Shown: positions 43,494 through 61,998, counted from the stretch's first letter. The stretch: DNA of 64,000 nucleotides from an uncultured Spirochaetia bacterium (GCA_937125225.1 CAKZLE010000004.1:62001-126000); one strand, 5' to 3'. Numbers and translations are program-made. Notes: generated by a model from the letters alone, not told the origin.

Positions 43494-43927
43494 TATTTGA
43501 ATACGACACCTTTCTTCAGGATTATATTGGCATAGATTGCCTCTTCTCCACTAGCTACGATTGCATAGGCCTGTTTTGCCCGTTCATAGAATGCGAATCG
43601 CTCTATAGATCCAAAATCAGTGAAATCCTTCTCGTGCTTTCTTGTGACTGCATCATATCTATCCCAGATCTCAGGTCTTCCACAGGGGTCTCCCGGAACG
43701 ACTTCCATCAACCATGCCTGGTTCTCACTATACTGATCGAGAGGCATGAGGGAGAGGATCGCATCAAGGATCTCTGGGACCCCATGCCCATCAAGTCTTA
43801 CGAGCTTCTGTGAATAGTTAGCTGAGGGGAAGTTTCCGTCTCCGATGACGATCTCATCTCCGTGTCCCATCTCCATCAAGATCTTCAGCAGCTCCGGTGA
43901 GATGATCGAAGGTATCCCTTTTAACAT
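43493..43927 (-). CDS. fucU: RbsD/FucU family sugar mutarotase (first copy)
   Basis: 144 aa from ATG 43927, chosen because it gives the family start MLKGIPSIISPELLKILMEMG; the longer in-frame start at 43975 adds 16 residues unlike the family and overlaps the promoter region. His22 and Asp24 (GHGDE) match the conserved catalytic pair, and the family ends with GE...Y.N..L.KGV. FucU interconverts the anomers of L-fucose and similar sugars before isomerisation. It leads the minus-strand operon with the LacI gene and is divergent from fucI, which supports the fucose call. Confidence 0.88.
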   Translation of the reverse strand: MLKGIPSIISPELLKILMEMGHGDEIVIGDGNFPSANYSQKLVRLDGHGVPEILDAILSLMPLDQYSENQAWLMEVVPGDPCGRPEIWDRYDAVTRKHEKDFTDFGSIERFAFYERAKQAYAIVASGEEAIYANIILKKGVVFK

Positions 43928-43954
43928 ATTGATTCTCCTCTGATTATTTTTTAC

Positions 43955-43983
43955 TTGCGTTCTAGAAAAAACCATGTGATAAT
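43955..43983 (+). promoter_or_regulatory. Candidate fucI promoter
   Basis: TTGCGT (43955-43960) and GATAAT (43978-43983) are 17 bp apart on the plus strand, immediately upstream of the LacI-type operators. A repressor bound there would block the start region. On the minus strand TATAAT (44013-44018) may serve fucU, though its -35 is poor. Confidence 0.55.
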
Positions 43984-44010
43984 GTAATCGATTACATGTA
44001 ATCGATTACA
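43983..44010. promoter_or_regulatory. Tandem 14-bp LacI-type operators
   Basis: TGTAATCGATTACA occurs twice with no gap, at 43983-43996 and 43997-44010. Each copy is a perfect palindrome with a central CG, the usual LacI-family operator shape. They lie between the divergent fucU-lacI and fucI genes. Confidence 0.88.
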
Positions 44011-44041
44011 TGATTATACCATGAGAACCAGGAGGCCGCCA

Positions 44042-46045: not shown

Positions 46046-47641
46046 GTGTATAAACTATTGTTCGTTGATGATGAATCGATCATACGGGAGGGAATCTCGT
46101 CTGTCATATCGTGGGATGAACTCGGGTTCGAGTTGGTAGCAAAACTTGAGAACGGGTTACAGGCTATCGAATATATCAGAAAGAATCCGGTAGACATCGT
46201 GATCTCCGATATCAAGATGCCCAAAGTCGATGGTCTACAGCTCTCGAAGAAGATCTCTGAGGAATTTCCCGAGATCATGGTCATGCTCCTTTCGGGGTAT
46301 GATGACTTCGAATATGCTCAGGAGGCCTTGAAATACCAGATCAGTGAATTTCTTCTGAAGCCGATCACTGCTGATGAACTCTCGAAGGTCCTGACCTCCA
46401 TGAGGGAGCGTCTTGACGAACAACATGATGAAAAAGAAAACCAGAAGGAGCTTCAGAAGAAACTTGATGAGAGTTTCCCTCTCCTGAGAGAACGGTTTCT
46501 CTACCGTCTGATCTCTGGTAGGATCCCCAAAGAGGCTATCGCTGAAAGAAAGGACTATTTTCAATGGATGGACCTAGAGGGGCTGTATCTTGTCATGATC
46601 ATCGATATTCCTGAGACCAATGATGATCTCGATCATATAGCACTGATGCAGTTTATCGGTAATCAGTTGCGGGAGAGTGATGAGATCCTGATAAACCGCG
46701 ATGATAACTTCGTCCTGCTTCTCCAGGAATTCGTAGACTTGAGTGATCAGGCTTCCGTGGATGAGGAGAGTGCATCTCTCAAGAAGAGGAGCTATGAACT
46801 CGGCAAGAAGATATTCTCCTATCTGCACAAGAGATCCGATGATCAGGGTGCCATCGGTTGTGGGGAGGTCGTCAACTCTATCGATCATCTAGTCATATCC
46901 TACCGAGGGGCACATAGTGCAGCAGAGTATGTGAAGGTCATAGGTAATGAGATGATCATGCAGGTCTCTGAGATAAGGAACAGACAGACTATATCTCCTG
47001 AGGACTTCTTCCTGCTTTCAGAACAGTTGGTAGCAGAATTGAAACGGGGAGCAAGAGAGGATGCTGAATCTGCTCTTGATGCCATCTTCACCTACTTTGA
47101 GAAACACTATCTCACCCTTCATGAAGCATCGTTATATCTTGTGCGGCTCCAATCAGTTCTTCAGGATTTTCTTCAAGAACTTGGATTAGTACATGGAGAT
47201 GAGATAGTACCCTTTCAGAGTGATTACTTCGTCTCGATAAACCAGGCTCGGGGATTCTTCACCAAGGTCGTTCGTGATATCGAGGATAGAATCCAAGATA
47301 GACGACTCGATAATACCAGAAGTCGTGTGGATAGGGCAAAGAGTATCATCTCACAGCGTTATGCGGAGAAGGGCTTCTCCCTGCAAGAGATCTGTGATGA
47401 GTTGTTCCTCTCTACGAGTCAATTCAGTCTGCTCTTCAAAGAGGGGACGGGGAAGACCTTCGTCGAGTATCTTACCACATATAGGATCGAACAGGCTCAA
47501 AGCTTGTTGAAGAGCTCCTCAATGAGAGCCTATGAGATCGCAGAGCTCGTGGGTTTCAGTGATCCGAGATACTTCTCGATCATATTCAAAAAACTGACAG
47601 AGAAGACTCCTCTTGAATACCGAAGGAGTCTGTCGGAGTGA
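46046..47641 (+). CDS. YesN-type response regulator (receiver + AraC)
   Basis: 531 aa, start GTG 46046. An N-terminal receiver (about 1-120) has DDE, the phosphoacceptor Asp in VDIVISDIKMPKVDG, and Lys in LLKPI. A middle region of about 280 residues follows. A C-terminal AraC-type double helix-turn-helix (about 430-530) reads FSLQEICDELFLSTSQFSLL, then YEIAELVGFSDPRYFSIIFK. YesN-like regulators activate sugar transporter genes. It overlaps the YesM-like kinase gene by four bases (GTGA) and probably drives the CUT2 importer downstream. Confidence 0.92.
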   Translation: MYKLLFVDDESIIREGISSVISWDELGFELVAKLENGLQAIEYIRKNPVDIVISDIKMPKVDGLQLSKKISEEFPEIMVMLLSGYDDFEYAQEALKYQISEFLLKPITADELSKVLTSMRERLDEQHDEKENQKELQKKLDESFPLLRERFLYRLISGRIPKEAIAERKDYFQWMDLEGLYLVMIIDIPETNDDLDHIALMQFIGNQLRESDEILINRDDNFVLLLQEFVDLSDQASVDEESASLKKRSYELGKKIFSYLHKRSDDQGAIGCGEVVNSIDHLVISYRGAHSAAEYVKVIGNEMIMQVSEIRNRQTISPEDFFLLSEQLVAELKRGAREDAESALDAIFTYFEKHYLTLHEASLYLVRLQSVLQDFLQELGLVHGDEIVPFQSDYFVSINQARGFFTKVVRDIEDRIQDRRLDNTRSRVDRAKSIISQRYAEKGFSLQEICDELFLSTSQFSLLFKEGTGKTFVEYLTTYRIEQAQSLLKSSSMRAYEIAELVGFSDPRYFSIIFKKLTEKTPLEYRRSLSE

Positions 47642-49419
47642 GAAATTCATTGCGATTCGGGACCCTTGGATCAAGAATATACTCATTCTTTATCCTCTTT
47701 ATCTTCGGGACTATCATCATCTTGCAGCTCGTTGCCTTTCAATTCACGATCAGTACCGTTCAAAATACGACCATCGAATCGAATAAGACCCTCTTAGGGC
47801 AACTCACTCGTCAGATTGAGTCCTACATAGAGGATATGGAACACCTTTCTCTTGCTGTCATCGAAGCTGAGGAGGTACAGACCTATCTAAGAGGAGAGGC
47901 TCCTGCTCCCTTGCCGGTCTATACGAAATTGATCCAGAAGCAGTTGGGGACCTATCTGAAGGCTCGCGAAGATATAAAGAATATCTACTTCTCAGATATG
48001 GTTGGTAATATTCTCTCGGCTGATGCATCAGTCGAGATCAATCAATATGCTGATGTGCTCAACAGTCAATGGTTCACCTCTGCAGTCGATAATCCCTCTG
48101 AGACTATCCTGTCCGGCTCCTATGTACAGAATCTCATTACTGAGGACTACTCATGGGTGACCTCAATCAGTAGAGGGATCGTATCGTTGGATACGGGAAC
48201 ACTCTTGGGGGTCCTTCTTGTAGACCTGAAGTTCGATGGGATCAAGGAACTTTGTCAGTCAATGGTCACGGGTAGAAAGGGGTATAACTTCATCATCGAT
48301 GATCAGGGAGTATATGTCTTCCATCCTACACAACAGTTAGTATACAGCGGCGTGAAGGATGAACCTCTCGATGAGATTCTGGAGTCTATCCATAGTGGTG
48401 AGGATAATACCTATAGTGATGGGGAGAAATATTATTTCATCAATGATTCAGAGACCACCGGCTGGCATATGGTGAGTGTCCTCTATGAGGATGATATTAT
48501 CACCGACTGGCAGTATGTTCAGATTTCCTTCGCTGCCATCGGTCTGATCCTATTCTTAGTCGTCGGTCTTGTGACGAATAGGATCACCCGATCTATCACA
48601 AGTCCTGTGAAGAAACTACAGAAGATCATGAAGAGTGTGGATGAGGGAGAGTTCCATCTAGTCGGAGAGATCCATGCGACTGATGAGATCAAAGAGCTTG
48701 CTCACGATTATGACATCATGGTAACTCGGATCAGAGAGTTGATGCATGAGAATGTAAAGGAACAGGAACTCAAACGAAAGAGTGATCTGAAGGCGTTACA
48801 GGCTCAGATCAATCCTCACTTTCTGTATAACACGCTAGATTCGATCATCTGGATGGCAGAGATGAAACAACATAGAGAGGTGGTTCTTATGACCTCAGCT
48901 CTGTCAAAACTCATGAGAATCAGCATCAGTAAAGGTCGGGAGATCATTCCGATCAAAGATGAGGTCGCGCATGTAGAATCCTATCTGACAATCGAAGAGA
49001 TGCGGTACAAAGGAAAGTATGATTCAGAGATCCTGATCGATCCTGAGTTGTATGAGGAGATGACCTTGAAGATCACCCTGCAACCACTGGTAGAGAATGC
49101 GATCTATCATGGGATCAAAGAGTCTGATCATAAGGGACTTATCCAGATCATTGGAACACGTGAGAAGGATACTATTGTGTTGAAAGTCATAGATAATGGA
49201 AATGGCATGACACCTGAAAAGGTGAAGATGCTCAATAGTCCCTATACAGTCTATGAGGATGACCAACCCTGGGTCAATCTGAGAGGGATGGGAGTCAGAA
49301 ATGTTCATGAGAGGATCCAACTCTATTTTGGTGAAGAGTATGGACTCCATTGTGAGAGTCTTTTAGGTGTCGGTACGACGATTACGGTGAGAATCCCGGT
49401 GAGAGGGGGCGTCAGATGA
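47638..49419 (+). CDS. YesM-type sensor histidine kinase
   Basis: 593 aa, start GTG. TM1 (about 13-33), an extracytoplasmic dCache-like sensor (about 40-285), TM2 (about 292-312), HAMP (about 315-370), then the His_kinase domain with the phosphoacceptor in NPHFLYNTLDSIIWM and an ATPase with TLQPLVENAIYHGIK, NGNGM and GMGVRNVHERI. The family activates a YesN-type regulator when a sugar is present. It is co-translated with the regulator before it and the sugar-binding protein after it. Confidence 0.92.
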   Translation: MRNSLRFGTLGSRIYSFFILFIFGTIIILQLVAFQFTISTVQNTTIESNKTLLGQLTRQIESYIEDMEHLSLAVIEAEEVQTYLRGEAPAPLPVYTKLIQKQLGTYLKAREDIKNIYFSDMVGNILSADASVEINQYADVLNSQWFTSAVDNPSETILSGSYVQNLITEDYSWVTSISRGIVSLDTGTLLGVLLVDLKFDGIKELCQSMVTGRKGYNFIIDDQGVYVFHPTQQLVYSGVKDEPLDEILESIHSGEDNTYSDGEKYYFINDSETTGWHMVSVLYEDDIITDWQYVQISFAAIGLILFLVVGLVTNRITRSITSPVKKLQKIMKSVDEGEFHLVGEIHATDEIKELAHDYDIMVTRIRELMHENVKEQELKRKSDLKALQAQINPHFLYNTLDSIIWMAEMKQHREVVLMTSALSKLMRISISKGREIIPIKDEVAHVESYLTIEEMRYKGKYDSEILIDPELYEEMTLKITLQPLVENAIYHGIKESDHKGLIQIIGTREKDTIVLKVIDNGNGMTPEKVKMLNSPYTVYEDDQPWVNLRGMGVRNVHERIQLYFGEEYGLHCESLLGVGTTITVRIPVRGGVR

Positions 49420-50405
49420 AGAACTGGTTCGTATTATTATTGAGTTTCATGGCAGCTTTGATTCTTTTCTTTGTCCTTACGATCTTCTATGAACAATCCA
49501 CCCCTCAGAAACTCGAACTTGATACTCCAATCCCGATCGTCCTGAAGTCCCGTATGGTAGAACCGATGGAATTCTGGGATGTGGTACATCGTGGTATCTA
49601 TGAAGCTGCAAAAGAATATGGGATCGATGTCAAGATCTCCGGTCCTCTCTATGAGAAGGAGATCGATCAACAGATAGAGATCGTAGAGGCTATATTGAAT
49701 GAGCATCCACCCCTACTAGTCCTGTCAGCGACTGACTATGTAAAACTCGTATCTACTGTCGAGAAGGCAGATAAGATGGGAATACCTGTGATAACCATCG
49801 ACTCAGGAGTCGATTCAGATATCCCGGTCTCATTCATCGCTACAGATAACATCGCTGCAGGAGAGAAGGCTGGTTTAGAGTTGCTGCGGCTTCTAGAGAA
49901 CAAAGAGAATCCAAAGATCGCAATCGTCAGTCATATCAAAGAGGCAGCCTCTGCTATCGATAGAGAGGCTGGAGTTCGAAAGGCTCTAGCTGGAGAGAAT
50001 ATCGTAGGTACTTGGTACTGTGATGTAGAAGAGGATCGTGCCTATGAGATCACCAAAGAACTCATTGATACTTATGATCTAGATGGGATCGTTGCACTTA
50101 ACGAAGTCTCCTCCCTCGGTGTCGCTCGAGCAGTGGATGAGTACCAGGTGAAGGATGCTCTTGTAGTTGTCGCCTTCGATAATGCGATCAGAGAGTTGGC
50201 ATTTCTGGAATCCGGTGTGATAAAAGCTACAGTGGTTCAGAGACCTTATAATATGGGATATATGACAGTGAAGATCGCAGTAGACTATTTGAAGGGAGAG
50301 GATGTTCCTGATTTCCTCGATACTCAATCGGTACTCATCACCCAAGAGAATATGTTCCAGAGGGAATATCAGGAGCTTCTCTACCCCTTCAGTAATGCTG
50401 AATGA
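49416..50405 (+). CDS. Membrane-anchored periplasmic sugar-binding protein
   Basis: 329 aa. The N-terminal helix (about 4-24) is followed by EQST rather than a cleavage site, so it probably stays anchored. The rest is a Peripla_BP_4-type domain (MEFWDVVHRGIYEAAKEYGI, VLSATDYVKLV, ITIDSGVDSDIPVSFIATDN). Its start overlaps the kinase stop by four bases. Such proteins present sugar to the kinase rather than to the importer, which has its own binding protein downstream. Together with YesN/YesM it forms a three-part sensing unit. Confidence 0.85.
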   Translation: MKNWFVLLLSFMAALILFFVLTIFYEQSTPQKLELDTPIPIVLKSRMVEPMEFWDVVHRGIYEAAKEYGIDVKISGPLYEKEIDQQIEIVEAILNEHPPLLVLSATDYVKLVSTVEKADKMGIPVITIDSGVDSDIPVSFIATDNIAAGEKAGLELLRLLENKENPKIAIVSHIKEAASAIDREAGVRKALAGENIVGTWYCDVEEDRAYEITKELIDTYDLDGIVALNEVSSLGVARAVDEYQVKDALVVVAFDNAIRELAFLESGVIKATVVQRPYNMGYMTVKIAVDYLKGEDVPDFLDTQSVLITQENMFQREYQELLYPFSNAE

Positions 50406-50568
50406 TTAAAAAAGTATACGAATTTCCTAGCTAATTCCTCTGATTTAGGAATAATTTAAACATTCTCCGTAAAATCCTCTATTTCGCGATCAAAAAAACG
50501 GGTTGATACTAATATTGTCGAAATTATGCAGGTGCAAAGGGTGTACCTGTCTTTCAGGGAGCGAAAGT

Positions 50569-52068
50569 TTGAGTAAACAAATTCTTTCAGTGAAACAAAT
50601 CGATAAACGATTCAAAGGTGTTCACGCATTAAAAGGTATAGATTTTGACCTGAATGAGGGCGAAGTCCATGCACTAGTAGGTGAGAACGGTGCCGGGAAA
50701 TCGACCCTAATGAAGATCTTGACTGGAATCTATGAGAAAGATTCTGGAGAAATGCACTATCTAGGTAAATTGTATCATCCACACGGCCCAAAACAGGCAC
50801 TGCAGATGGGCATTGGTATCATCCATCAGGAATTGAACATGATGGATCACCTTACTGTTGCACAGAATATCTTCATTGGTCGAGAATCGATGCATAAAAG
50901 CGGATTGTTTCTTGATGAAAAAGCCCAGAATCAGAGGGCTCAGGCATTATTTGATCGATTGAACATGAATATCGATCCATCTGAACTGTTGGGAAACCTC
51001 ACTGTAGGTATGCAACAGATGGTAGAGATCGCAAAAGCTGTATCACATGATCTTAAGGTGTTGATTCTTGATGAACCAACAGCTGCACTCACCAATACAG
51101 AGATCGATGAGTTATTCACGATCATGAGGAATCTTTCTAAACAGAAAGTAGCAATGATCTATATCTCACACCGAATGGATGAGATCCATAGAATCACCAA
51201 CCGGGTAACAGTCATGCGAGATGGTGAGTATATTGGAACAAGGGATACCGATAAGGTGACAAAAGAAGAGATCATACAAATGATGGTCGGTCGAGTCATC
51301 TATGAAGACCCAAAACAGAAGAGTAATGTAGAAGATGGAGCACAAGTCGTCTTGAAGGTCTCGAACCTTCATGCCGGTAAGATGGTCAAGGATGTCAGTT
51401 TCGAACTCAGACGTGGTGAGATCCTGGGATTCTCAGGTTTGATCGGGGCTGGTAGAACAGAGACAGTAAGAGCTCTCTTCGGAGCAGACAAGATAGAAAG
51501 TGGAACAATCGAGATCAATGGGAAACCTGCATTGATCAAGACTCCTAGGGATGCTGTCGAACATGGTATCGGATATCTTTCAGAAGATAGAAAGCGATAC
51601 GGATTATGTACCGGACTCAGTGTGATCGATAACTCGATCATGGCTACCTATGAATCTTATCAGAAGTATTCATTCATGCAACAGGGGAAGATGAGAAAGG
51701 TCGCACAGCAGTTCAGTGAAGCTATGAAGATAAAGACTCCATCCTTGGAACAACTTGTCGTCAATCTTTCTGGTGGTAACCAGCAGAAAGTAGTCATAGC
51801 AAAATGGTTGATCAAGAACAGTGATATCCTCATCTTCGATGAACCGACTCGAGGGATCGATGTCGGTGCTAAGAGTGAGATCTATCATCTGATGAATGAA
51901 CTGGCTAAAGAGGGCAAGTCGATCATCATGATCTCTTCAGAGATGCCTGAAGTATTAAGAATGAGTGATAGGGTCATCGTGATGTGCGAAGGCCGAATCA
52001 CTGGAGAACTCGATATCAGTGAAGCCAATCAAGAGAAGATCATGGCTTTCGCGACAATGAACAATTAG
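50569..52068 (+). CDS. CUT2 sugar ABC transporter ATP-binding protein
   Basis: 499 aa from TTG 50569, with GGGAG (50557-50561) 7 bp upstream; the longer in-frame start at 50503 adds residues unlike the family. Two fused ATPase domains: Walker A GENGAGKST, signature LTVGMQQMVEIAKA and Walker B ILDEPTAAL in the first; a degenerate Walker A (GLIGAGRTE), LSGGNQQKVVIAKW and FDEPTRGID in the second. This is the RbsA/XylG-like pattern. It energises uptake through the permease encoded 16 bp downstream. Confidence 0.93.
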   Translation: MSKQILSVKQIDKRFKGVHALKGIDFDLNEGEVHALVGENGAGKSTLMKILTGIYEKDSGEMHYLGKLYHPHGPKQALQMGIGIIHQELNMMDHLTVAQNIFIGRESMHKSGLFLDEKAQNQRAQALFDRLNMNIDPSELLGNLTVGMQQMVEIAKAVSHDLKVLILDEPTAALTNTEIDELFTIMRNLSKQKVAMIYISHRMDEIHRITNRVTVMRDGEYIGTRDTDKVTKEEIIQMMVGRVIYEDPKQKSNVEDGAQVVLKVSNLHAGKMVKDVSFELRRGEILGFSGLIGAGRTETVRALFGADKIESGTIEINGKPALIKTPRDAVEHGIGYLSEDRKRYGLCTGLSVIDNSIMATYESYQKYSFMQQGKMRKVAQQFSEAMKIKTPSLEQLVVNLSGGNQQKVVIAKWLIKNSDILIFDEPTRGIDVGAKSEIYHLMNELAKEGKSIIMISSEMPEVLRMSDRVIVMCEGRITGELDISEANQEKIMAFATMNN

Positions 52069-52084
52069 GTAGAGGTAAGAGAGA

Positions 52085-53323
52085 ATGGAAAAGAAAAAGA
52101 ACCTTATCGAGGATATTAAGAGTAAAGGACTTCAGAAGATTCTTGCACCTGCTGCATTGATCATCCTGTATGCTTTCTTTGCGATCTTCGGAAGAAACTT
52201 CCTGTCATATACGACTTTGGTGAATATTCTAGATTCATCATACTATATTGGTTTTATTGCGATCGGTGTAACCTTCGTCATTATCACAGGTGGTATCGAC
52301 CTATCCTGTGGAACAGTAATGATGTGTGCAGCGATCATCGGTGGTACGGCATATAAGACTTGGGGATGGCCAATGTGGATATCTCTTCTTCTTATAATCT
52401 TTGTTGGTTTCCTATTCGGATTATTCAATGGTATCATGGTCTCAAAACTGAAACTCCCTCCCTTCATCGCAACATTAGGAACGATGATGATCTCAAAGGG
52501 TGTTGGATCTATCGTATCAAACGTAAGATCAGCTACATTCCCAACGAGAACAGAGTCAGCAGGTTGGTTCAAAGGTATCTTCAAGTATATCACTCCGGAC
52601 AAGACTTCTATTCCTACTGGAGCTTTCGTACTGTTCGGTGTCGCATTCATCTGTTATCTGATCCTGACCAAGACGAAGATGGGACGTTATACCTTCGCAA
52701 TCGGATCTAACAAAGAGGCTGCAAGACTCTCCGGTATCAATGTAGAGAAATGGGAGATGATGGTCTATATCGTAGTCGGAATCCTTGCAGGTGTCGGTGG
52801 TATCGCATTCGCAGCTGTTTATACGACAGTTATGCCTGCTCAGGGAGCTGGATTCGAACTCTATGCAATTGCAGGAGCGGTAATCGGTGGTACATCACTT
52901 TCAGGTGGTATCGGTACTATCTCTGGAACCCTGATCGGTGTATTCATCATGAGTGTACTGAGAACTGGTCTTCCTTCAATGGACCTACAGTCTCATTACC
53001 AGACATTCTTCACTGGTGTTGTAGTAATCCTTGCGGTTTTACTCGATATCTATAAGACTAATCAGTCAACACAGGAGAGGGTCCTTGCCCCTTCAGAGAA
53101 ATATAAACAGTCAATGAACGAGAAGATCGAAGATCTTAAACAGGCATTAGCTTCTGCTTCAGATGATAAAGCTAGTGGAATCAAGGCAGAGATGGCAGCT
53201 CTCACAAAAGAGAGAAATCATACCTACTCACGAATGAGAGCTGAAGAAAAAGCAGAAGCAGCTCGAGTCAAGAAGGCAGAGAGACTTGCAGAGAAGGAAT
53301 TCAAGCAGAGTCTTTCTAGCTAA
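52085..53323 (+). CDS. CUT2 sugar ABC transporter permease with charged C-terminal tail
   Basis: 412 aa. The helical core (about 15-320) carries the BPD_transp_2 features GVTFVIITGGIDLSCGTVM and IAGAVIGGTSLSGGIGTISG. After the last helix about 85 residues of charged, lysine- and glutamate-rich coiled-coil-like sequence follow (EKIEDLKQALASASDDKASG onward); a typical RbsC ends near 325. The tail is probably cytoplasmic and may interact with the ATPase or be lineage-specific. Middle gene of the importer operon. Confidence 0.9.
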   Translation: MEKKKNLIEDIKSKGLQKILAPAALIILYAFFAIFGRNFLSYTTLVNILDSSYYIGFIAIGVTFVIITGGIDLSCGTVMMCAAIIGGTAYKTWGWPMWISLLLIIFVGFLFGLFNGIMVSKLKLPPFIATLGTMMISKGVGSIVSNVRSATFPTRTESAGWFKGIFKYITPDKTSIPTGAFVLFGVAFICYLILTKTKMGRYTFAIGSNKEAARLSGINVEKWEMMVYIVVGILAGVGGIAFAAVYTTVMPAQGAGFELYAIAGAVIGGTSLSGGIGTISGTLIGVFIMSVLRTGLPSMDLQSHYQTFFTGVVVILAVLLDIYKTNQSTQERVLAPSEKYKQSMNEKIEDLKQALASASDDKASGIKAEMAALTKERNHTYSRMRAEEKAEAARVKKAERLAEKEFKQSLSS

Positions 53324-53338
53324 TTATATTGTGAATAC

Positions 53339-53356
53339 CCGGTACGTATGTACCGG
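53339..53356 (+). other. Intercistronic hairpin before the binding-protein gene
   Basis: CCGGTAC-GTAT-GTACCGG forms a perfect 7-bp stem 22 bp before the binding-protein start. Similar hairpins in sugar operons stabilise the downstream message or set the ratio of binding protein to permease. No T tract follows, so it is not a standard terminator. Confidence 0.55.
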
Positions 53357-53378
53357 TGAAATAAAGAGGAGGAACTTA

Positions 53379-54473
53379 ATGAAAGTTTCAAAAAGATTTG
53401 TAGCAATTCTTTTAGTACTCGCTTTTCTAGGAACTTCTATGGCCGTGTTCGCACAGGGTCAGGAAGAACAAGCCTACATAGCTGTTGTATCTAAAGGTGA
53501 ACAGCATGACTTCTGGCAGCAAGTAAAACTTGGTGCTAAAGATGCAGCTGAGAAACTCGGTGTAGATATGACCTTTGAAGGACCACCATCAGAAAGTGAT
53601 GTACAGATTCAGGTAGAGATGTTGAATTCAGCTATGGCTAAGAATCCTGTAGCTATTGCTCTTGCAGCTCTAGATACTGGATCAGTTATGGACCAGCTTC
53701 AGGACGCTCTTGATAAGAATATCCCAGTAATCGGATTCGACTCTGGTGTTCCAAACGCTCCTGCTGGATCAATCTATGCAAATGCATCAACTGACAACTT
53801 CAATGCTGCCGGTGTTGCTGCTGAAAAAATGTTCGAAGTCATCAAAGCTGACATCGAAGCTGCAACAGCTGCTAACCCAGTAACAATCGTTGTTATGAAC
53901 CAGGACGCTTCTGGTGAATCACTTCTTAGCCGAGGAAAAGGTTTCAGAGATACAATGATCGAATTGATCGTTGCTGAGACTGCTCTTGGAAAAGACGACA
54001 TCAAAGTTATGGGTAACACTGCATATATCTCAGCAGATAACCCAACTAGCGGCTCAAAAGTCATGATCGATATGGTAGTTCCTGCTTCTGCTGATGCAAC
54101 TGATGCAACAGCTTCAGCACAGGCTGTATTGAACAAGGTTGAAGACGCTGGTACTCTTGGTATCTTCTGTTCAAACGAATCAACAGTCAAGGGTCTCCTA
54201 GCTGCAACCAATGATGGTTCAGATCTTCCTGGAAAATTCCCTGGACTCATAGTTGTAGGTTTTGATGCTGGTAAAGCACAGAAAGACGCTGTTCGAGCTG
54301 AGTACTTCTTAGGATCAATCACACAGGATCCTTACTCAATCGGATACAAAGCAGTATCTCTTGCTTACGATGCATACATGGGCAAAGCAGTATCAGATGT
54401 TGATACAGGTGCTAAGTTCTACAACAGTTCTAACATGGACGATGCTGACATCACCGGTCTTCTTTACGACTAA
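53379..54473 (+). CDS. CUT2 sugar ABC transporter substrate-binding protein
   Basis: 364 aa from ATG 53379, with AGGAGG (53367-53372) 6 bp upstream. The signal peptide ends near AVFAQG. The mature domain is Peripla_BP_4 type: FWQQVKLGAKDAAEKLGVDM, VIGFDSGVPNAPAGSIYANA, VVGFDAGKAQKDAV. Codons are strongly biased to GCT/GCA, GGT and AAC, unlike neighbours, as expected for the most highly expressed gene of an importer. The sugar is unknown; fucose or a sugar of the next cluster is a reasonable guess from context. Confidence 0.92.
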   Translation: MKVSKRFVAILLVLAFLGTSMAVFAQGQEEQAYIAVVSKGEQHDFWQQVKLGAKDAAEKLGVDMTFEGPPSESDVQIQVEMLNSAMAKNPVAIALAALDTGSVMDQLQDALDKNIPVIGFDSGVPNAPAGSIYANASTDNFNAAGVAAEKMFEVIKADIEAATAANPVTIVVMNQDASGESLLSRGKGFRDTMIELIVAETALGKDDIKVMGNTAYISADNPTSGSKVMIDMVVPASADATDATASAQAVLNKVEDAGTLGIFCSNESTVKGLLAATNDGSDLPGKFPGLIVVGFDAGKAQKDAVRAEYFLGSITQDPYSIGYKAVSLAYDAYMGKAVSDVDTGAKFYNSSNMDDADITGLLYD

Positions 54474-55230: not shown

Positions 55231-56268
55231 TTAAGGAGGTGTGATTTCTCCATCAAGATCCCAGAGTGCTGTCCAGTCCTGGTCTTCCTTCCACAGGAAT
55301 ACCTGACCTTTGATCAAACGGCAATTCTTATTAAGATTAGCTAGAGCAGTCATCTCATCCTCAGTTAACGGATCGATCACTGAGCATTCTAGGTTGCTCA
55401 GATATTCATTCTTTCTTACTGAGAAGGGGATCGGGGTCTGCCCTCGCTGTACTGCCCATTTAATACAGATTACTGCTGGGTGAACGTTATGGTTCTTTGC
55501 GATCTCGAGTACCACAGGATCTTCGATATCGACAGTATCATTTTCGGTCTTGTCTCTATCAGGTCTCGTAGGAGATCCAATAGGGGTGAAGCCGATAGGT
55601 TGTACATCATTTGCTTTGAGGAAATCAAAGAACTCTTTCTGCTGGAAATGGGGATGGAGCTCCATCTCATTCACTGCAGGTTTGATCTTTGCATCTCTTA
55701 AGATGAGTTTCATCTTTGCGATAGTGGTGTTTGAGGTCCCGATATTCCTGACTAGTCCCAACTCTACGAGTTCTTCCATCTGTCTCCAAGTCTTCATGAA
55801 GTTCTCATGAATATAAGGTTTAGCATCAGGTGATCGTGAATCAACATCACAACCCGGTGCATGAAAGTTAGGGAAGGGCCAGTGAACGAGATAAAGGTCC
55901 AGGTAATCGACCTGTAGATCTTTCAATGACTGTTTACATGATTTGAGAACATCACCTTCACCGTGCATGTTGTTCCATACTTTTGAGGTGATCCATAATT
56001 CTTCTCGTTTGAGACCTCCATCCATGATGGATCTGAAAGCCTCTCCGATATTCTTCTCATTGCCATAGACTGAGGCACAGTCAAAATGACGATAACCGAT
56101 CTCTGCAGCTCCAACGACTGCGTCTGCAATATCTTCTGCACTAAAGCGGTCAGAACCGAATGTTCCAAGTCCTACTGCAGGAAGTAGATCCCCTGATCTC
56201 AATACTCTTTTTGGTACGAGATTCGGATCGATTCCATCACTTGCCTTGGTGAATGTTCTAATTGACAT
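55231..56268 (-). CDS. Aldo/keto reductase
   Basis: 345 aa. The catalytic tetrad is present: Asp in YRHFDCASVYGNE, Tyr in the same motif, Lys in LWITSKVWN and His in LVHWPF. It is an NADPH-dependent carbonyl reductase that would reduce an aldose to a polyol. Its promoter carries the 20-bp palindrome shared with the FGGY-kinase operon, and it is divergent from the GntR gene, so it belongs to that regulon. A role as aldose reductase in the first step of sugar breakdown is inferred. Confidence 0.9.
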   Translation of the reverse strand: MSIRTFTKASDGIDPNLVPKRVLRSGDLLPAVGLGTFGSDRFSAEDIADAVVGAAEIGYRHFDCASVYGNEKNIGEAFRSIMDGGLKREELWITSKVWNNMHGEGDVLKSCKQSLKDLQVDYLDLYLVHWPFPNFHAPGCDVDSRSPDAKPYIHENFMKTWRQMEELVELGLVRNIGTSNTTIAKMKLILRDAKIKPAVNEMELHPHFQQKEFFDFLKANDVQPIGFTPIGSPTRPDRDKTENDTVDIEDPVVLEIAKNHNVHPAVICIKWAVQRGQTPIPFSVRKNEYLSNLECSVIDPLTEDEMTALANLNKNCRLIKGQVFLWKEDQDWTALWDLDGEITPP

Positions 56269-56292
56269 AGTGAACTCCTTCTGTTTCTTAGC

Positions 56293-56312
56293 TGTTATAG
56301 TACACTATAACA
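56293..56312 (-). promoter_or_regulatory. GntR operator over the reductase -10 box
   Basis: On the minus strand this reads TGTTATAGTGTACTATAACA, identical to the site at 57575-57594 before the kinase gene. Its TATAGT serves as the -10 box, with TTTACG 17 bp upstream as -35. Binding would block transcription of the reductase gene. Confidence 0.85.
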
Positions 56313-56400
56313 CGATATGTTTTGTTCGTAAAGGGTAAAGATAGATAATATTCATATAGCATTATGTTGACTGTTCTATCTGTTCTAGGACAGTTAATTG

Positions 56401-56429
56401 TTGACGGTTTTTCACTATGCCTCTACTAT
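56401..56429 (+). promoter_or_regulatory. Promoter of the GntR gene
   Basis: TTGACG (56401-56406) and TACTAT (56424-56429) are separated by 17 bp and lie 32 bp before the ATG. The TGTTATAGT operator is absent here, so the regulator gene seems not to be autoregulated through the same site. Confidence 0.62.
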
Positions 56430-56461
56430 AGAGTTATCACTGAATCAAGAAGGTAAATCAG

Positions 56462-57526
56462 ATGACCCTACAGGTTGATAAGAATAGTACGATCCCCCCA
56501 TTCCAGCAGATCAAGAACCAGATAAAGGCAGCAATCGTCTCAGGAGAGTATCCTGCAGAGGCTGCATTACCTTCAGTCAGAGAAGTCTCAAGGATCACCA
56601 ATGTTGCTTTGACGACAGCTCAGCGCGTATATACTGATCTTAGAAATGAAAACTATATCTATTCAATGAGAGGTAAGGGGAATTTTGTCAAATCTCTTGC
56701 TGATAGGATCAACCATCAGATTCATGTGTTTCTTCCCTCATCCTCCCTCTCCTTCTTTACCAAGATCCTTCAAGGGGTATTCTCTGCAGCCTATTCAAAG
56801 AACTGGGAAGTCATAGTACATAGTCTTGAGACTGATAAACTTCTTTGGAATGAGCATACGATCGAGATGCTCACAGATGCGATCGATCAGAATGCTGGAG
56901 TGATCTTCATTGAGGAAGCTTTCGGTGATGTTAAACAGAAATGTATCGAGGCTGCGAAGATCATTCCCTTTGTATCCATCGAGTGGAAACTTCAAGGGGC
57001 CTCGTCAGTCACGAATGATTATGAACACTCGATGTACCAGGCCATGAAGTATCTCGTTGAGCAAAAGAGTAGTAAGCGCTTTCTTATATTAAAGGGACGT
57101 GATTATCAGTATAACGCTTCACAGAAGATCCAGGGAATCCATAAGGTGGTTGAAGAATTCAATCTTTTGATCAATAGAGACATCTATTTCAGAGATAGTG
57201 ATTTTGATGCGATCTCCGGTTATGATGTGACACAGGGGTTCTTTAAGGATAAATCGGTAGATACGGTTATCTGTGCCAATGACTATGAGGCAATCGGGGT
57301 CATCGGAGCACTCACCCAGAAGGGTCTTCTCGTAGGAAAGGATGTAAGAGTCCTCGGCTATGGTGATATGACAGATAAGACCACCAACTATTTCCCTTTA
57401 TCCACGGTATCTCAGAATCTTGCTCAGGTCGGCCTCAGTGCGGTGGAAGAGATCTTCAGATTATCGAGTGGTGAATCTATCCGCGATATTACTGTTGCAG
57501 CACATCTTGAGATGAGAAACACCTAA
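56462..57526 (+). CDS. GntR-type regulator with LacI-like sensor domain
   Basis: 354 aa. The N-terminal GntR winged helix (about 10-78) shows IPPFQQIKNQIKAAIVSGEY followed by LPSVREVSRITNVALTTAQRVYTDL. The C-terminal part (about 88-354) is a periplasmic-binding-type sensor with VFIEEAFGDV, SIEWKLQGAS, TVICANDYEAIGVIGAL and LGYGDMTD. This hybrid is the AraR-like arrangement that binds a sugar directly. It is flanked by two identical palindromes before the reductase and kinase genes and is their likely repressor. Confidence 0.88.
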   Translation: MTLQVDKNSTIPPFQQIKNQIKAAIVSGEYPAEAALPSVREVSRITNVALTTAQRVYTDLRNENYIYSMRGKGNFVKSLADRINHQIHVFLPSSSLSFFTKILQGVFSAAYSKNWEVIVHSLETDKLLWNEHTIEMLTDAIDQNAGVIFIEEAFGDVKQKCIEAAKIIPFVSIEWKLQGASSVTNDYEHSMYQAMKYLVEQKSSKRFLILKGRDYQYNASQKIQGIHKVVEEFNLLINRDIYFRDSDFDAISGYDVTQGFFKDKSVDTVICANDYEAIGVIGALTQKGLLVGKDVRVLGYGDMTDKTTNYFPLSTVSQNLAQVGLSAVEEIFRLSSGESIRDITVAAHLEMRNT

Positions 57527-57574
57527 AAGCATAAGAAGATACGAGAAAGAAGGATTGTTTAAATGGGATTATGA

Positions 57575-57594
57575 TGTTATAGTGTACTATAACA
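57575..57594 (+). promoter_or_regulatory. GntR operator over the kinase-operon -10 box
   Basis: TGTTATAGTGTACTATAACA has perfect 9-bp arms. TATAGT (57578-57583) lies within it and TTGTTT (57555-57560) is 17 bp upstream, so the repressor would cover the -10 box. The same sequence, same orientation relative to the gene, occurs at 56293-56312. Confidence 0.87.
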
Positions 57595-57616
57595 GTTAGT
57601 CATCAAGGAGTATTAT

Positions 57617-59113
57617 ATGAGTAAATATATCCTGAGTATCGATCTTGGCACCACAAGCATGAAAGCTGCGGTATACCAATTAGATTTTACCCCTGTATAT
57701 ACAGTACAGAAGGGGTATCAGACAACATTCCCTCATGAGGGCTGGGCTCAACAACACCCTGATATGTGGTGGAAGGTCCTCTCAGAGGTGGTGAAGGAGC
57801 TCTTAGAAAAGAGTCGGATAGCACCTTCAGATATTGCCGTCATCGGTATTGATAGTATGTCTTCTGCAGTAGTCCCCCTCGATGGAGAGGGTAATGTCCT
57901 CTATCCAGCAATGCTCTGGATGGATAGGCGAGCACGAACAGAGTGTGATGATATTGACTATATATTCGGAAACAAGTTCTTCACGATCAGTGGGAACCAT
58001 AATGACCCCTCGAACTTCGGGCCTAAGATCATGTGGCTCAAGATGAATGAACCTGATGTCTATGATAAGACATCGGTGATTCTCCATGCCAATGGATTTC
58101 TTGCCTATCGACTCACTGATGAACTGACTATGGATGTCAGTGAATGTGGATTATCGCAGTTATGCTATACCGCAGAGTCGGCATGGTCTGAGGAACTTCT
58201 CACAGGCTGTGGTATCGATAGAGAGAAATTACCTGAGATAAGAGAATGTACCTCAGTCATCGGAAAGGTGACTAACAGAGCAGCCGCTATTACCGGTCTT
58301 GCAGCGGGAACTCCAGTAGTCGCAGGATCCATGGATAATGTGGCCGCAGGTGTTGGAGCAGGACTCTATCAACAGCATGATGTCTATGTCTCAGCGGGAA
58401 CGGTAACTACTGTGAACAGTTGCATCAGTACTCCTGAATATAGTGAGAAGATGCATCTGTATCGACATGCAGTCCCGAACCGTTGGCTATCAGTAGCGGG
58501 AGTCGATTATGGTGGAGCTGGCTTGAAATGGTTCAAAGAGATATTGGAGAATGATGATTTCAAAGAGATTGACCGATTGGCCACAGAGGCGGTCACACGG
58601 GTGAATTCACCTCTGTTCTTCCCCTATATGGTAGGGCAGAGAGCACCTTTATGGAATGATGACACGAGGGGAGTCCTCTATGGACTGACTCCTGCAGTAA
58701 CGAAAGGTGAACTCCTTCGGACTCTCATGGAGGGTAATGTCCTTGGTGTCAGAAGAATCTTCGGAGAGCTCAACAGGATGGGGGTCCGACCAAACCAGGT
58801 GCGACTCACAGGTGGTTGTGCAAACAGTACTATCTGGTCTGAGTTGTTTGCAGATATCCTTTCAATGGAGGTGGTCATTCCCGGTTCAGGAGATGTTGCT
58901 TCCCTTGGCTCTGCTATGATCGCAGCAGTCGGAGCTGGTATCGTAGATGATTTTGAATCTGCAGCAGAGACAATTCCTATTAGAGAGACCTTTACTCCTC
59001 ATGGAGAGGAGATACATAGGATGTATGAAAAGAGAATGGAACTTTTTAATACTATTTACGAAAAATTAGAAGATACCTTCCATACCTTTGGTGCCTCTGT
59101 AAAAGAGTCCTAG
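57617..59113 (+). CDS. FGGY-family sugar kinase (xylulokinase-like)
   Basis: 498 aa. The N-terminal phosphate motif LSIDLGTTSMKAAVYQ and the FGGY signatures AMLWMDRRAR, GSMDNVAAGVGAG and LTGGCANSTIWSELFADIL are present. Length and motifs are closest to xylulokinase-like members; the substrate could be a ketopentose or ketohexose. First gene of a four-gene operon with Zn-dehydrogenase, GatZ-like protein and FucU, 25 bp before the next start. Repressed by the GntR protein, inferred from the operator. Confidence 0.9.
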   Translation: MSKYILSIDLGTTSMKAAVYQLDFTPVYTVQKGYQTTFPHEGWAQQHPDMWWKVLSEVVKELLEKSRIAPSDIAVIGIDSMSSAVVPLDGEGNVLYPAMLWMDRRARTECDDIDYIFGNKFFTISGNHNDPSNFGPKIMWLKMNEPDVYDKTSVILHANGFLAYRLTDELTMDVSECGLSQLCYTAESAWSEELLTGCGIDREKLPEIRECTSVIGKVTNRAAAITGLAAGTPVVAGSMDNVAAGVGAGLYQQHDVYVSAGTVTTVNSCISTPEYSEKMHLYRHAVPNRWLSVAGVDYGGAGLKWFKEILENDDFKEIDRLATEAVTRVNSPLFFPYMVGQRAPLWNDDTRGVLYGLTPAVTKGELLRTLMEGNVLGVRRIFGELNRMGVRPNQVRLTGGCANSTIWSELFADILSMEVVIPGSGDVASLGSAMIAAVGAGIVDDFESAAETIPIRETFTPHGEEIHRMYEKRMELFNTIYEKLEDTFHTFGASVKES

Positions 59114-59138
59114 GTGGAAGGAGATAAGGAGTAGCGGT

Positions 59139-60176
59139 GTGAAAGCAGCATTAAGAAGTGCGCTGAAACAGGTAGAGTGTGTAGAGATCGATAAACCTAC
59201 AGCAGGTGATGGTGAAGTCATCATCAAAGTCGCATTTGCAGGGATCTGTGGATCAGATATTCATCGAATGGTCGATGATAATGAGAAATGGAACCGCATC
59301 GTCCTTGGCCATGAGTTCTCAGGTTATATCGAGGAGATAGGAGAAGGGGTCGAAGGTCTCACTAAAGGTGATCGTGTCACTGCAGTCCCCCTAGAACCTT
59401 GTCACCACTGTAAGTGGTGCCAGCAGGGACTCTATTCACTTTGCGGTGGATACTCATTCGTCGGTTCAAGAAAACATGGGGCATTTGCCCAGTTTGTCCG
59501 GGTAAAGGCTGATAATGTCCTGAAACTCGGGGACAAGGTCAGTATGCGACAGGGAGCTCTGATGGAGCCTGTCACAGTGACCCTTCATCCGGTACTCGAG
59601 TTGGGGACCATTGCAGGTAAAAGAGCTCTTATTATCGGTTCAGGTACCATTGGGGTACTTGCCATATCGGTACTGAAGAAGATGGGGGTCTCTGATGTGA
59701 CTGTTTCAGATGTCGTAGATCAGAAACTCGAACTTGCAACGAGATGCGGTGCAGACCGGGTGGTCAACGTGCTCAACGAACCTCTTACAGAGGTAGCTGA
59801 GAAAGAGGGCCTCTATGATATCGTACTTGAATGTTCAGGAACCCATATTGGGAAGAATGATGCTATGAATGTGGCTAATGGGAAGGGCACTATCGTTTTT
59901 GTCGGTACCTCTCCAAAAGATGCACAGTTCAGTGGAGAGACTCTTGAGAGGATCAACCGTAAAGAGTTGACTATCAAGGGTTCTTGGATGAACTATTCAG
60001 CACCATGGCCTGGTAATGAATGGAAGATCGTGAACGATATGATGAATGAAGGACTTATAGATGAGAAGCTTATTGTCTCACATGAGTTTGGAGTAGAAGA
60101 TATGCAGAAGGCATATGATGTGATCTTCGGTGGTGAGTACTACGTGAAGATCCTTATAGCTATGGGAGAAGAATAA
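59139..60176 (+). CDS. Zinc-dependent polyol/alcohol dehydrogenase (GatD/sorbitol dehydrogenase-like)
   Basis: 345 aa, start GTG with AAGGAG upstream. Catalytic zinc ligands are Cys in GICGSDIH and the His-Glu pair in LGHEFSGYIEE. The structural zinc site is PCHHCKWCQQGLYSLC, four cysteines. NAD-binding loop IIGSGTIGVLA. This subgroup oxidises polyols or their phosphates (galactitol-1-phosphate, sorbitol) to ketoses. The TAATG overlap with the next gene indicates translational coupling. Confidence 0.88.
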   Translation: MKAALRSALKQVECVEIDKPTAGDGEVIIKVAFAGICGSDIHRMVDDNEKWNRIVLGHEFSGYIEEIGEGVEGLTKGDRVTAVPLEPCHHCKWCQQGLYSLCGGYSFVGSRKHGAFAQFVRVKADNVLKLGDKVSMRQGALMEPVTVTLHPVLELGTIAGKRALIIGSGTIGVLAISVLKKMGVSDVTVSDVVDQKLELATRCGADRVVNVLNEPLTEVAEKEGLYDIVLECSGTHIGKNDAMNVANGKGTIVFVGTSPKDAQFSGETLERINRKELTIKGSWMNYSAPWPGNEWKIVNDMMNEGLIDEKLIVSHEFGVEDMQKAYDVIFGGEYYVKILIAMGEE

Positions 60177-61486
60177 TGAGCGATGCATTAACAGGATTTC
60201 AGGCAATGCTTATCAGTAATAGAGAGAATGGAACAGGTGGAATCTGTTCTGTATGTTCCGCTCATGCTGAAGTGATAAAGGCAAGTATGGAACAGGCTGT
60301 AGAAGATGATTCTATCGTCTTGATCGAGGCAACTTCCAACCAGGTGAACCAGTTCGGTGGTTATACCGGTATGAAGGCACCAGATTTCGTCGAGTATGTG
60401 AACAGACTCGCCGATGAGGTTGGCTTTCCCAAAGAGAGAGTACTTCTTGGTGGTGATCACCTCGGACCCAACTCCTGGCAGGATGAACCAGCTGCCTCCG
60501 CGATGGATAAGGCAGAGGAGCTCATCAGGTCCTATGTGGCCGCAGGCTTTCGGAAGATCCACCTCGACTGCAGTATGTTCTGTGCAGACGATGAGGGTGA
60601 TCGACATGCAGCACTTGCTGATAGTATCGTAGGTGCTCGTGCAGCACGTTTATGCGCTGCAAGTGAGGATGAGTGGGCAAAGACCGATGGTAAGGGTGCT
60701 AGACCTCTCTATATCATCGGGACAGAGGTCCCTATTCCTGGTGGAGCACAGGAAGAGGAAGATACAGTCATCCCTACTACTGCTGAAGATGCGAACCGGA
60801 CCATCGCAGTGACAAAGAGTTGCTTTGAAGATGCGGGTCTTGCCGATGTCTGGTCACGAGTGATAGCTCTTGTCGTTCAACCCGGTGTTGAGTTCGGTGA
60901 TGATCAGATCTTTGACTATGTACCTGCAGCAGCAGCAGGCTTGAGTGAATCGATCATGGCGCATTCAGGGATGGTCTTCGAGGCCCATTCTACTGATTAT
61001 CAGAGGGAAGAGGGACTTGCTGAACTAGTTCGTGATCACTTCTGTATCCTCAAAGTCGGTCCATGGTTGACCTATGCTTACCGAGAGGCGATCTATCTAC
61101 TCGCTGATGTAGAGAAAGAGTTGATCACAGATGAAAGCCGACTCTCACGAGTCAAAGAGGTGATCGAAGAGGTCATGCTCGCGAAGCCAGGGAACTGGAA
61201 GAAATACTATAAGGGAACAGATGAAGAGATCACCTACAAGAGAAAGTACAGTTTCAGTGATCGTTCTAGATACTACTGGCCGGATGCAGATATACAGGGT
61301 GCTATCGCAACTCTCAATGCGAATCTGAGAGAGAAGGGCATACCGTTTTCCCTGCTCAGTCAATATTTCCCGGTTGAATTCACTATGATACGAGATGGGA
61401 AACTAGATAATGACCCTGTTGCGATCGCTCGTCAGAGAGTTCGTCAGGTAGTGAGCATCTATTCACGAGCAAGCGGAATCGCATAG
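60176..61486 (+). CDS. GatZ/KbaZ-like protein without a GatY partner
   Basis: 436 aa, full length for the family. Motifs: ENGTGGICSVCSAHAEVIKA, VLLGGDHLGPNSWQDEPA, AAGFRKIHLDCSMFCADD, YIIGTEVPIPGGAQEEEDTV and AHSGMVFEAHSTDYQ. GatZ/KbaZ was named as a non-catalytic partner of tagatose-bisphosphate aldolase GatY/KbaY. Stand-alone homologues have been described as ketohexose-6-phosphate C4-epimerases (tagatose-6-P to fructose-6-P). There is no GatY/KbaY in the window, so the stand-alone role fits better. Confidence 0.88.
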   Translation: MSDALTGFQAMLISNRENGTGGICSVCSAHAEVIKASMEQAVEDDSIVLIEATSNQVNQFGGYTGMKAPDFVEYVNRLADEVGFPKERVLLGGDHLGPNSWQDEPAASAMDKAEELIRSYVAAGFRKIHLDCSMFCADDEGDRHAALADSIVGARAARLCAASEDEWAKTDGKGARPLYIIGTEVPIPGGAQEEEDTVIPTTAEDANRTIAVTKSCFEDAGLADVWSRVIALVVQPGVEFGDDQIFDYVPAAAAGLSESIMAHSGMVFEAHSTDYQREEGLAELVRDHFCILKVGPWLTYAYREAIYLLADVEKELITDESRLSRVKEVIEEVMLAKPGNWKKYYKGTDEEITYKRKYSFSDRSRYYWPDADIQGAIATLNANLREKGIPFSLLSQYFPVEFTMIRDGKLDNDPVAIARQRVRQVVSIYSRASGIA

Positions 61487-61498
61487 GAGGATATGATC

Positions 61499-61930
61499 AT
61501 GTTACGAGGTATAGCACCACAGATTTCACCTGAGCTATTGAAAGCTCTAGCAGAGATGGGGCATAGCGATGAGATCGTGATCTCAGATGCGTTCTTTCCT
61601 GCTGCAAAATATAATGATAGGATCATCAGAGCTGATGGTATCAAGATAGCGGATCTCCTTGCAGGGATTCTCCCTCTGATTACCTTGGATAGTTATGTCC
61701 CCTCTCCGGTCCTCATGATGCAGCCTGGGGAAGGTGATGAACTTGACCCTACTGTTGAGGCAGCTTATCGTGCTGAGATAGACAAAGTATGGCCAGAGAC
61801 TCCTGAAACAGGGCGGATCGATAGATTCGAGTTCTATGAAAGAACGAAGAGTGCCTTCTGCGTCGTAGTGAGCGGTGAGACTGCGAAGTATGGCAATGTC
61901 ATCCTGAGTAAGGGTGTGATCAACCGATAA
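61499..61930 (+). CDS. RbsD/FucU family sugar mutarotase (second copy)
   Basis: 143 aa from ATG 61499, 8 bp after AGGAGG (61485-61490); ATG 61493 is too close. It opens MLRGIAPQISPELLKALAEM, like the first FucU, with His22 and Asp24 (GHSDE) conserved. About half of the positions appear identical to the 43,493 copy. As the last gene of the kinase operon it probably equilibrates anomers of the sugar this operon uses. The sugar need not be fucose. Confidence 0.88.
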   Translation: MLRGIAPQISPELLKALAEMGHSDEIVISDAFFPAAKYNDRIIRADGIKIADLLAGILPLITLDSYVPSPVLMMQPGEGDELDPTVEAAYRAEIDKVWPETPETGRIDRFEFYERTKSAFCVVVSGETAKYGNVILSKGVINR

Positions 61931-61957
61931 TCAATTCAATTCTTATGAGATATGAAG

Positions 61958-61998
61958 ATGGCCAATGAAAAAAATCTGTTTCATTGGCCATTGTTCTT
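61958..61998. terminator. Hairpin terminator between convergent operons
   Basis: ATGGCCAATGAAA and TTTCATTGGCCAT pair over 13 bp without mismatch around an 8-nt loop, then TGTTCTTTA. It sits between the end of the kinase operon and the convergent REC-GGDEF gene and may serve both. Confidence 0.82.

Follow-up and report, generated by a model that had tools for sequence, protein, structure and literature searches.

What sugar does a regulon handle that combines an aldo/keto reductase (AKR) and a FucU-type mutarotase with a carbohydrate kinase, a polyol dehydrogenase and a stand-alone GatZ-like protein? The question is raised by positions 55231-61930 of a stretch of DNA from an uncultured Spirochaetia bacterium (GCA_937125225.1 CAKZLE010000004.1:62001-126000; the whole stretch of 64,000 nucleotides is called the window here). 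We give a probability of roughly 0.5 to the reading that this regulon encodes a route from galactitol to fructose 6-phosphate that is free of a phosphotransferase system (PTS) and has an aldose front end, with L-galactose as its most likely input. In this scheme FucU would equilibrate the anomers of a galacto-series aldohexose, the AKR would reduce the aldohexose to galactitol, the kinase and the dehydrogenase would together convert galactitol to D-tagatose 6-phosphate, and GatZ would epimerise C4 of the latter to yield fructose 6-phosphate. What was observed are the genes, the operators, the conserved gene sets, and the active-site and subfamily signatures; from these we infer all of the substrates, which of kinase and dehydrogenase acts first, and the induction of the regulon.

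The six genes that a previous reading of this DNA (the sequence-only reading) had described were all recovered as open reading frames where it had placed them. The AKR gene (55231-56268, - strand; PF00248, 192 bits) is divergent from a gene for a predicted regulator in which a GntR-type helix-turn-helix is joined to a LacI-type sugar-binding domain (56462-57526, + strand; PF00392 with PF13377/PF13407). Nearly contiguous on the + strand then come genes for an FGGY carbohydrate kinase (57617-59113; PF00370/PF02782), a Zn-dependent medium-chain polyol(-phosphate) dehydrogenase assigned below to the GatD subfamily (59139-60176; GTG start), a GatZ/KbaZ-like protein (60176-61486; PF08013, 585 bits) and an L-fucose-type mutarotase, FucU (61493-61930; NF011949, 174 bits). 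A strong terminator-like hairpin with a 14-pair stem and a T-rich tail (61957-61992, + strand) marks the end of the operon.

Two sites tie these genes together. Operator 1, GTTATAGTACACTATAAC (56294-56311), lies 26 bp upstream of the AKR start, and operator 2, GTTATAGTGTACTATAAC (57576-57593), lies upstream of the kinase start; both are perfect 18-bp palindromes, and the reverse complement of either one is identical to the other. If as many as three mismatches are allowed, the pattern occurs twice in the window, against 0.04 matches expected from shuffled windows, and in the whole 3.43-Mb genome these two are the only matches with fewer than three mismatches, so that the earlier claim of identical operators before both units was borne out. 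The operators, which stand before the AKR gene and before the kinase gene and nowhere else in the genome, thus mark two transcription units, the AKR gene alone and kinase-dehydrogenase-GatZ-FucU, both of which the regulator would control through these sites. Further members of the regulon were sought elsewhere in the genome and rejected, since even the next-best sites differ from the operator at three positions, and a control pattern gave no fewer sites of this quality but in fact more. Operator 1 covers the -10 element of an extended -10 promoter-like site (56332-56304, - strand) and a promoter-like match for the regulator (56401-56429) carries no operator, although promoter matches in this region occur at no more than chance frequency.

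Comparison with other genomes suggests that the double-operator arrangement matters. (Note that the comparison loci, here and below, were fetched through GatZ and that most are metagenome-assembled contigs, some of them incomplete; their gene content therefore says nothing about how often the kinase or the AKR occurs without GatZ, and absences from them are weak.) Orthologues of the regulator, 49-51% identical, stand beside a kinase-dehydrogenase-GatZ run in three spirochaete loci (L016, L018 and L037), and a relative in a fourth (L040) precedes an apparent deletion remnant. Paired sites of the same kind, the first preceding the regulator gene and the second the kinase gene, are present in three of these four loci with a different sequence, AGTGTTYTARAACACT or near it; L018 has a single site, and its kinase starts 17 bp after the regulator. 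The plan has thus been kept though the sequence of the site has changed, which supports the prediction that it is functional. In L040 (7415-9182; spirochaete-class genome G046) the regulator and both operators are intact, and a GatZ fragment comes within ~100 bp of the start of the kinase gene, which looks like the outcome of a deletion of the remainder; a FucU gene lies 3 kb beyond the fragment.

The last step proposed for the route would fall to GatZ. The GatZ protein matches PF08013 over its full length (584.6 bits; positions 4-419 of 420), scores 567 bits against TIGR02810 (cut-off 568.8), and is identical to E. coli GatZ at Cys20, Glu44, Asp87, His88, Glu171, His257 and Lys279 (E. coli numbering), the seven proposed metal or catalytic residues (PMC11907403). 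E. coli GatZ and KbaZ interconvert fructose 6-phosphate and tagatose 6-phosphate, the conversion of fructose 6-phosphate to tagatose 6-phosphate being the direction reported (PMC11907403); for the reverse direction in Agrobacterium and Sinorhizobium, PMC11907403 cites Wichelecki 2015 and Kohlmeier 2019. With every proposed epimerase residue in place, the idea that a stand-alone GatZ works here as an epimerase is strengthened, and we propose that the protein is a D-tagatose-6-phosphate 4-epimerase. Of note, in one spirochaete locus (L037, 6784-17871; genome G026) the first kinase-dehydrogenase-GatZ run is succeeded downstream by an ATP-binding cassette (ABC) transporter, a LacI regulator and then a second, nearly identical GatZ.

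The dehydrogenase resembles enzymes that act on galactitol 1-phosphate. Its best match in the PDB is E. coli GatD (4a2c, 228 bits), the next solved homologue reaching 150 bits, and it shares with GatD the GSWMNYSAPWPGNEW motif (the GSWMNYSxPxPGxEW segment). All copies in the operons have this segment, altered at one position at most, and the four solved homologues that rank after GatD (threonine dehydrogenase, RspB, 5vm2 and the ketose reductase) lack it. In a tree, the spirochaete dehydrogenases group with those of Lachnospiraceae operons (support 0.89) and the window copy with those of Kiritimatiellota (0.998); the Lachnospiraceae operons in question carry GatZ together with EIIC-GAT PTS genes (EIIC-GAT and EIIA in L026 and L030) and, in L026, a PF01116 aldolase. 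On these signatures we place the dehydrogenase in the GatD subfamily, as a relative rather than as GatD itself because its 287.7 bits against the NCBIfam GatD model fall short of the equivalog cut-off of 550.

This placement bears on the order of the two middle steps. Either galactitol would be phosphorylated and the galactitol phosphate then oxidised, or galactitol would be oxidised to D-tagatose and the latter then phosphorylated. The kinship with GatD argues for phosphorylation first, whereas the published alphaproteobacterial routes argue for oxidation first, and we consider phosphorylation before oxidation to be at least as likely as the reverse. The sequence-only reading had instead fixed the order as aldose to polyol to ketose to ketose phosphate to fructose 6-phosphate, with D-galactose to galactitol to D-tagatose to tagatose 6-phosphate as one fit. 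Its oxido-reductive logic and the epimerisation by GatZ are supported, but the fixed order of oxidation and then phosphorylation is not established, given a dehydrogenase from a subfamily with phosphorylated substrates. That FGGY kinases are mostly ketose kinases would favour such an order. So would the alphaproteobacterial routes, which, as cited in PMC11907403, pass through free D-tagatose with a PfkB kinase. We nevertheless regard the fixed-order pathway from D-galactose as unlikely, also for reasons of substrate that are set out below.

For the kinase, the closest NCBIfam model is XylB (TIGR01312), which it matches with 323.7 bits, below the cut-off of 380.25. The xylulokinase motif GQMHG, whose Met77-His78 we take to be substrate contacts of XylB, is replaced by DSMSS in the window and by DAFST in Kiritimatiellota, and an assignment as xylulokinase was therefore dropped. 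FGGY kinases act mostly on ketoses, and we propose that this one is a ketose or polyol kinase. The same findings bear on the idea that the operon converts D-arabinose or D-arabitol to D-xylulose 5-phosphate through a xylulokinase, with GatZ incidental. That XylB is the nearest model (324 bits) speaks for this idea, as does the transport of D-arabinose by the permease FucP (PMC13406643), found in related operons (see below), but the sub-threshold score and the missing motif, along with the retention of GatZ in every operon found (a biased point, the loci having been fetched through GatZ), make a pentose pathway the most improbable of the alternatives considered. A D-xylulose-type kinase had been named in advance as evidence that would count against a hexose route, and the lack of GQMHG in the sequence does not point to one. 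This genome encodes one more kinase from that FGGY clade (L131, 7854-9368), 45% identical to the first; its cluster, which includes an ABC transporter and two URO-D-like proteins, looks unrelated.

We then consider how an aldose might enter. The AKR has a complete catalytic D-Y-K-H tetrad, carried by the motifs FDCASVYGNE, TSKVW and LVHWP, and its closest solved structures are aldose and aldehyde reductases, on which basis we propose it for the aldose reductase step. FucU scores 174.4 bits against NF011949, above the cut-off of 141, and its best PDB match is the L-fucose mutarotase 2wcv. The combination of kinase, dehydrogenase and GatZ is shared by the window, four spirochaete-class loci (L016, L018, L037 and L039) and six genomes of Kiritimatiellota/Verrucomicrobiota. 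All six operons of the latter (L114-L119) join this core to FucU and five of them also to the AKR, in the order AKR, FucP-type permease, FucU, histidine phosphatase, FGGY kinase, dehydrogenase and GatZ, with variations (FucU is last in L119, and the sequence of L117 begins past the position of the AKR). In the five operons that have it, the AKR is 64-73% identical to the window copy; the corresponding values are clearly lower, 44-48% for the kinase and 47-50% for the dehydrogenase.

Thus six operons, those five and the window's own, have the AKR as well as FucU, and three spirochaete loci (L016, L018 and L037) have neither in the 10-18 kb of sequence examined. The pattern supports the conclusion that the two genes come and go as a pair while the kinase-dehydrogenase-GatZ core stays the same, as would be expected if a mutarotase and a reductase formed the aldose entry to a polyol or ketose core, and it lends support to the oxido-reductive logic put forward earlier. 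The three loci without the pair are also what would be seen if galactitol, D-altritol or D-tagatose were imported as such and the AKR and FucU served as a side branch or for another sugar; their core is regulated, and two of them have an adjoining ABC transporter. Such import is, however, about as unlikely a primary function as the fixed-order pathway, since in the window the AKR has the shared operator and FucU lies inside the operon, and in Kiritimatiellota both stand in the same gene run as the core.

An aldose front end raises the matter of which aldose. By enumeration of Fischer configurations, only galactitol and D-altritol yield D-tagatose on oxidation at C2 or C5; the aldoses that reduce to one or the other are D-galactose, L-galactose, D-talose and D-altrose, and inversion of D-tagatose at C4 gives D-fructose. 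Because galactitol is meso, L-galactose, once reduced and then oxidised at the other end, would land in the D-series. L-galactose also shares its C2-C5 configuration with L-fucose, and as the input it would explain why GatZ, with a hexulose 6-phosphate as its substrate, is found together with a permease and a mutarotase of the L-fucose type. The permease, FucP, is identified by the curated cut-off in two of the Kiritimatiellota/Verrucomicrobiota operons (L022/L115 and L114; 453 and 507 bits against 280), where it sits between AKR and FucU, and L116 and L117 have a matching gene or fragment. Besides L-fucose, which it transports most efficiently of the three, FucP accepts L-galactose and D-arabinose (PMC13406643).

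D-galactose as the input, the fit named before, is not established. FucU and FucP point to the L-galacto series, and in this genome galT (C20:369693) adjoins a divergent galK-like gene away from the regulon, a pair that could serve D-galactose. L-fucose itself must also be considered; it would be reduced to L-fucitol (1-deoxygalactitol), phosphorylated and oxidised, GatZ would handle 1-deoxy-tagatose 6-phosphate, and a cleavage would follow. L-fucose is common in marine polysaccharides, and FucU, FucP and a GH95 gene that adjoins one operon are what such a pathway might be expected to leave. However, it requires an additional aldolase that the operon does not contain, L-fucose cannot normally supply a hexulose 6-phosphate because it has no C6 hydroxyl, and FucI, the normal entry, has a gene of its own elsewhere in this genome and was also found in four of the six Kiritimatiellota/Verrucomicrobiota genomes; we consider this pathway less probable than either fixed-order use of D-galactose or polyol import. 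In the window, FucI (1049 bits, over the TIGR01089 cut-off) belongs to a separate L-fucose-type unit 11 kb upstream (42504-45859), made up of a LacI regulator (-), another FucU (-) that shares 46% identity with the one in the operon, and FucI (+). The sequence-only reading had passed over this FucI and second FucU; it had the class of chemistry right and was incomplete as to order and substrate.

The GH95 gene (alpha-L-fucosidase/alpha-L-galactosidase family) adjoins the operon in L118 (1-1437, - strand) and is cut by the contig end. It encodes Thr at the proposed -1 subsite Thr/His position. Thr at this position has been linked to L-galactose (PMC4491172), but a GH95 enzyme with Thr is a strict fucosidase (PMC8245568), and the residue was accordingly abandoned as a means of telling L-galactose from L-fucose.

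We rank L-galactose, an input that the sequence-only reading had not considered, first because of FucP and FucU, the separate galT and galK-like pair for D-galactose and the separate FucI for L-fucose, and we place D-galactose and imported galactitol (the AKR then having another role) behind it. Several observations count against this ranking. L-fucose is the better-known substrate of FucP and FucU, and D-arabinose is a further substrate of FucP. In L118, in L119 and in the window nothing matched FucP. The galK-like gene beside galT scores 101 bits against a curated cut-off of 227, so that the Leloir argument against D-galactose is not airtight, and galT was not found in the five related Kiritimatiellota/Verrucomicrobiota genomes searched. 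No L-galactose-specific enzyme was identified, and the GH95 protein of L118 may be a fucosidase. Finally, the scheme has no need of the additional histidine phosphatase of the Kiritimatiellota operons, which it leaves unexplained. (This cobC-like phosphatase recurs beside or near GatZ in L114-L119, L017, L041 and L075, also where kinase and dehydrogenase are missing; in L017 it is accompanied by a mannitol-dehydrogenase-family gene and an ABC transporter.)

The earlier statement that GatY/KbaY, PfkB and class II aldolase are lacking is true of the cluster; the genome, for its part, has two PF01116 aldolases (one FBA and one ketose-bisphosphate aldolase of the PRK08185 subfamily) and several PF00596 aldolases. 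In the whole-genome search the regulon operator was not found before any PF01116 or PF00596 aldolase gene. A co-regulated GatY, which had been named as evidence against an aldolase-free route, was thereby rejected, as neither PF01116 gene is preceded by the operator. The neighbours of the PRK08185-type gene (L052, 5364-8394) include two DeoR-type regulators and a D-lyxose-isomerase-like gene, likewise without the operator.

Between the FucI unit and the AKR gene, the window encodes an AraC-type response regulator, a sensor kinase, a membrane-anchored sugar-binding protein and a complete sugar ABC transporter (46046-54473), likely a sugar-sensing uptake system. The transporter (ATPase, permease and binding protein; 50584-54473, + strand; PF00005, PF13407) stands directly before the AKR gene; it scores 579 bits as RbsA-like in NCBIfam, below the cut-off, and the best PDB match of its binding protein is 4kqc. 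No regulon operator was found at 50584-54473, and the transporter is possibly the importer of the pathway sugar.

How does the regulon compare with known systems? The galactitol/D-altritol/D-tagatose route of Agrobacterium and Sinorhizobium likewise uses a sugar kinase and a stand-alone GatZ, from tagatose 6-phosphate to fructose 6-phosphate, with no need of GatY. In Agrobacterium it comprises a PF00107 dehydrogenase (an oxidation of the Zn-dehydrogenase type), a PF00294 kinase and a PF08013 protein. It differs in its regulator and in its kinase, which is of the PfkB type (PF00294, beside GatZ in S. meliloti, L034) where an FGGY kinase is found here, while the dehydrogenase here is GatD-type; to our knowledge that route has no AKR, FucU or FucP. 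The enterobacterial and Lachnospiraceae galactitol PTS operon (gatYZABCD) shares the GatD-type dehydrogenase, GatZ and the conversion of galactitol to tagatose 6-phosphate, but 55231-61930 contains neither EIIC-GAT/EIIA nor GatY, and an FGGY kinase takes the place of PTS phosphorylation. The yeast and fungal oxido-reductive D-galactose pathway has the same succession of aldose reductase and polyol dehydrogenase by way of galactitol; here the genes form a bacterial operon, C4 epimerisation by GatZ would occur at the level of the phosphate, and FucU and FucP suggest an L-sugar. The regulator shares with B. subtilis AraR-type repressors the fusion of a GntR helix-turn-helix to a LacI/GalR effector domain, though its operator and target genes differ.

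There is thus precedent for GatZ epimerases that stand alone, for the catabolism of galactitol and of tagatose, and for the oxido-reductive use of galactose by yeast. Because pathways with a stand-alone GatZ are already in the literature (PMC11907403 and the papers it cites), it is the gene combination that is novel and not GatZ; a search of the open-access literature found no description of this combination as one pathway. What is new is an FGGY kinase in this role, a GatD-type dehydrogenase without a PTS, an entry through AKR and FucU (with FucP in some operons), conservation across phyla and the reading in terms of L-galactose. In its full form, that at least two phyla catabolise L-galactose by way of meso galactitol to D-tagatose 6-phosphate and fructose 6-phosphate, with FucP recruited for import and FucU for the exchange of anomers, and with a GatD-type dehydrogenase and an FGGY kinase whose specificity would be new, the proposal is a tentative one, which we hold with less confidence than the route itself.

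If correct, these organisms would have a route from galactitol to fructose 6-phosphate that needs neither a PTS nor an aldolase, and a function would be given to an FGGY clade in which no characterised member turned up. GatZ enzymes are wanted for the production of D-tagatose, and a natural operon with a dedicated kinase and a GatD-type dehydrogenase would be of practical use. L-galactose, a constituent of red-algal galactans and some xylans, would reach glycolysis through a symmetrical intermediate.

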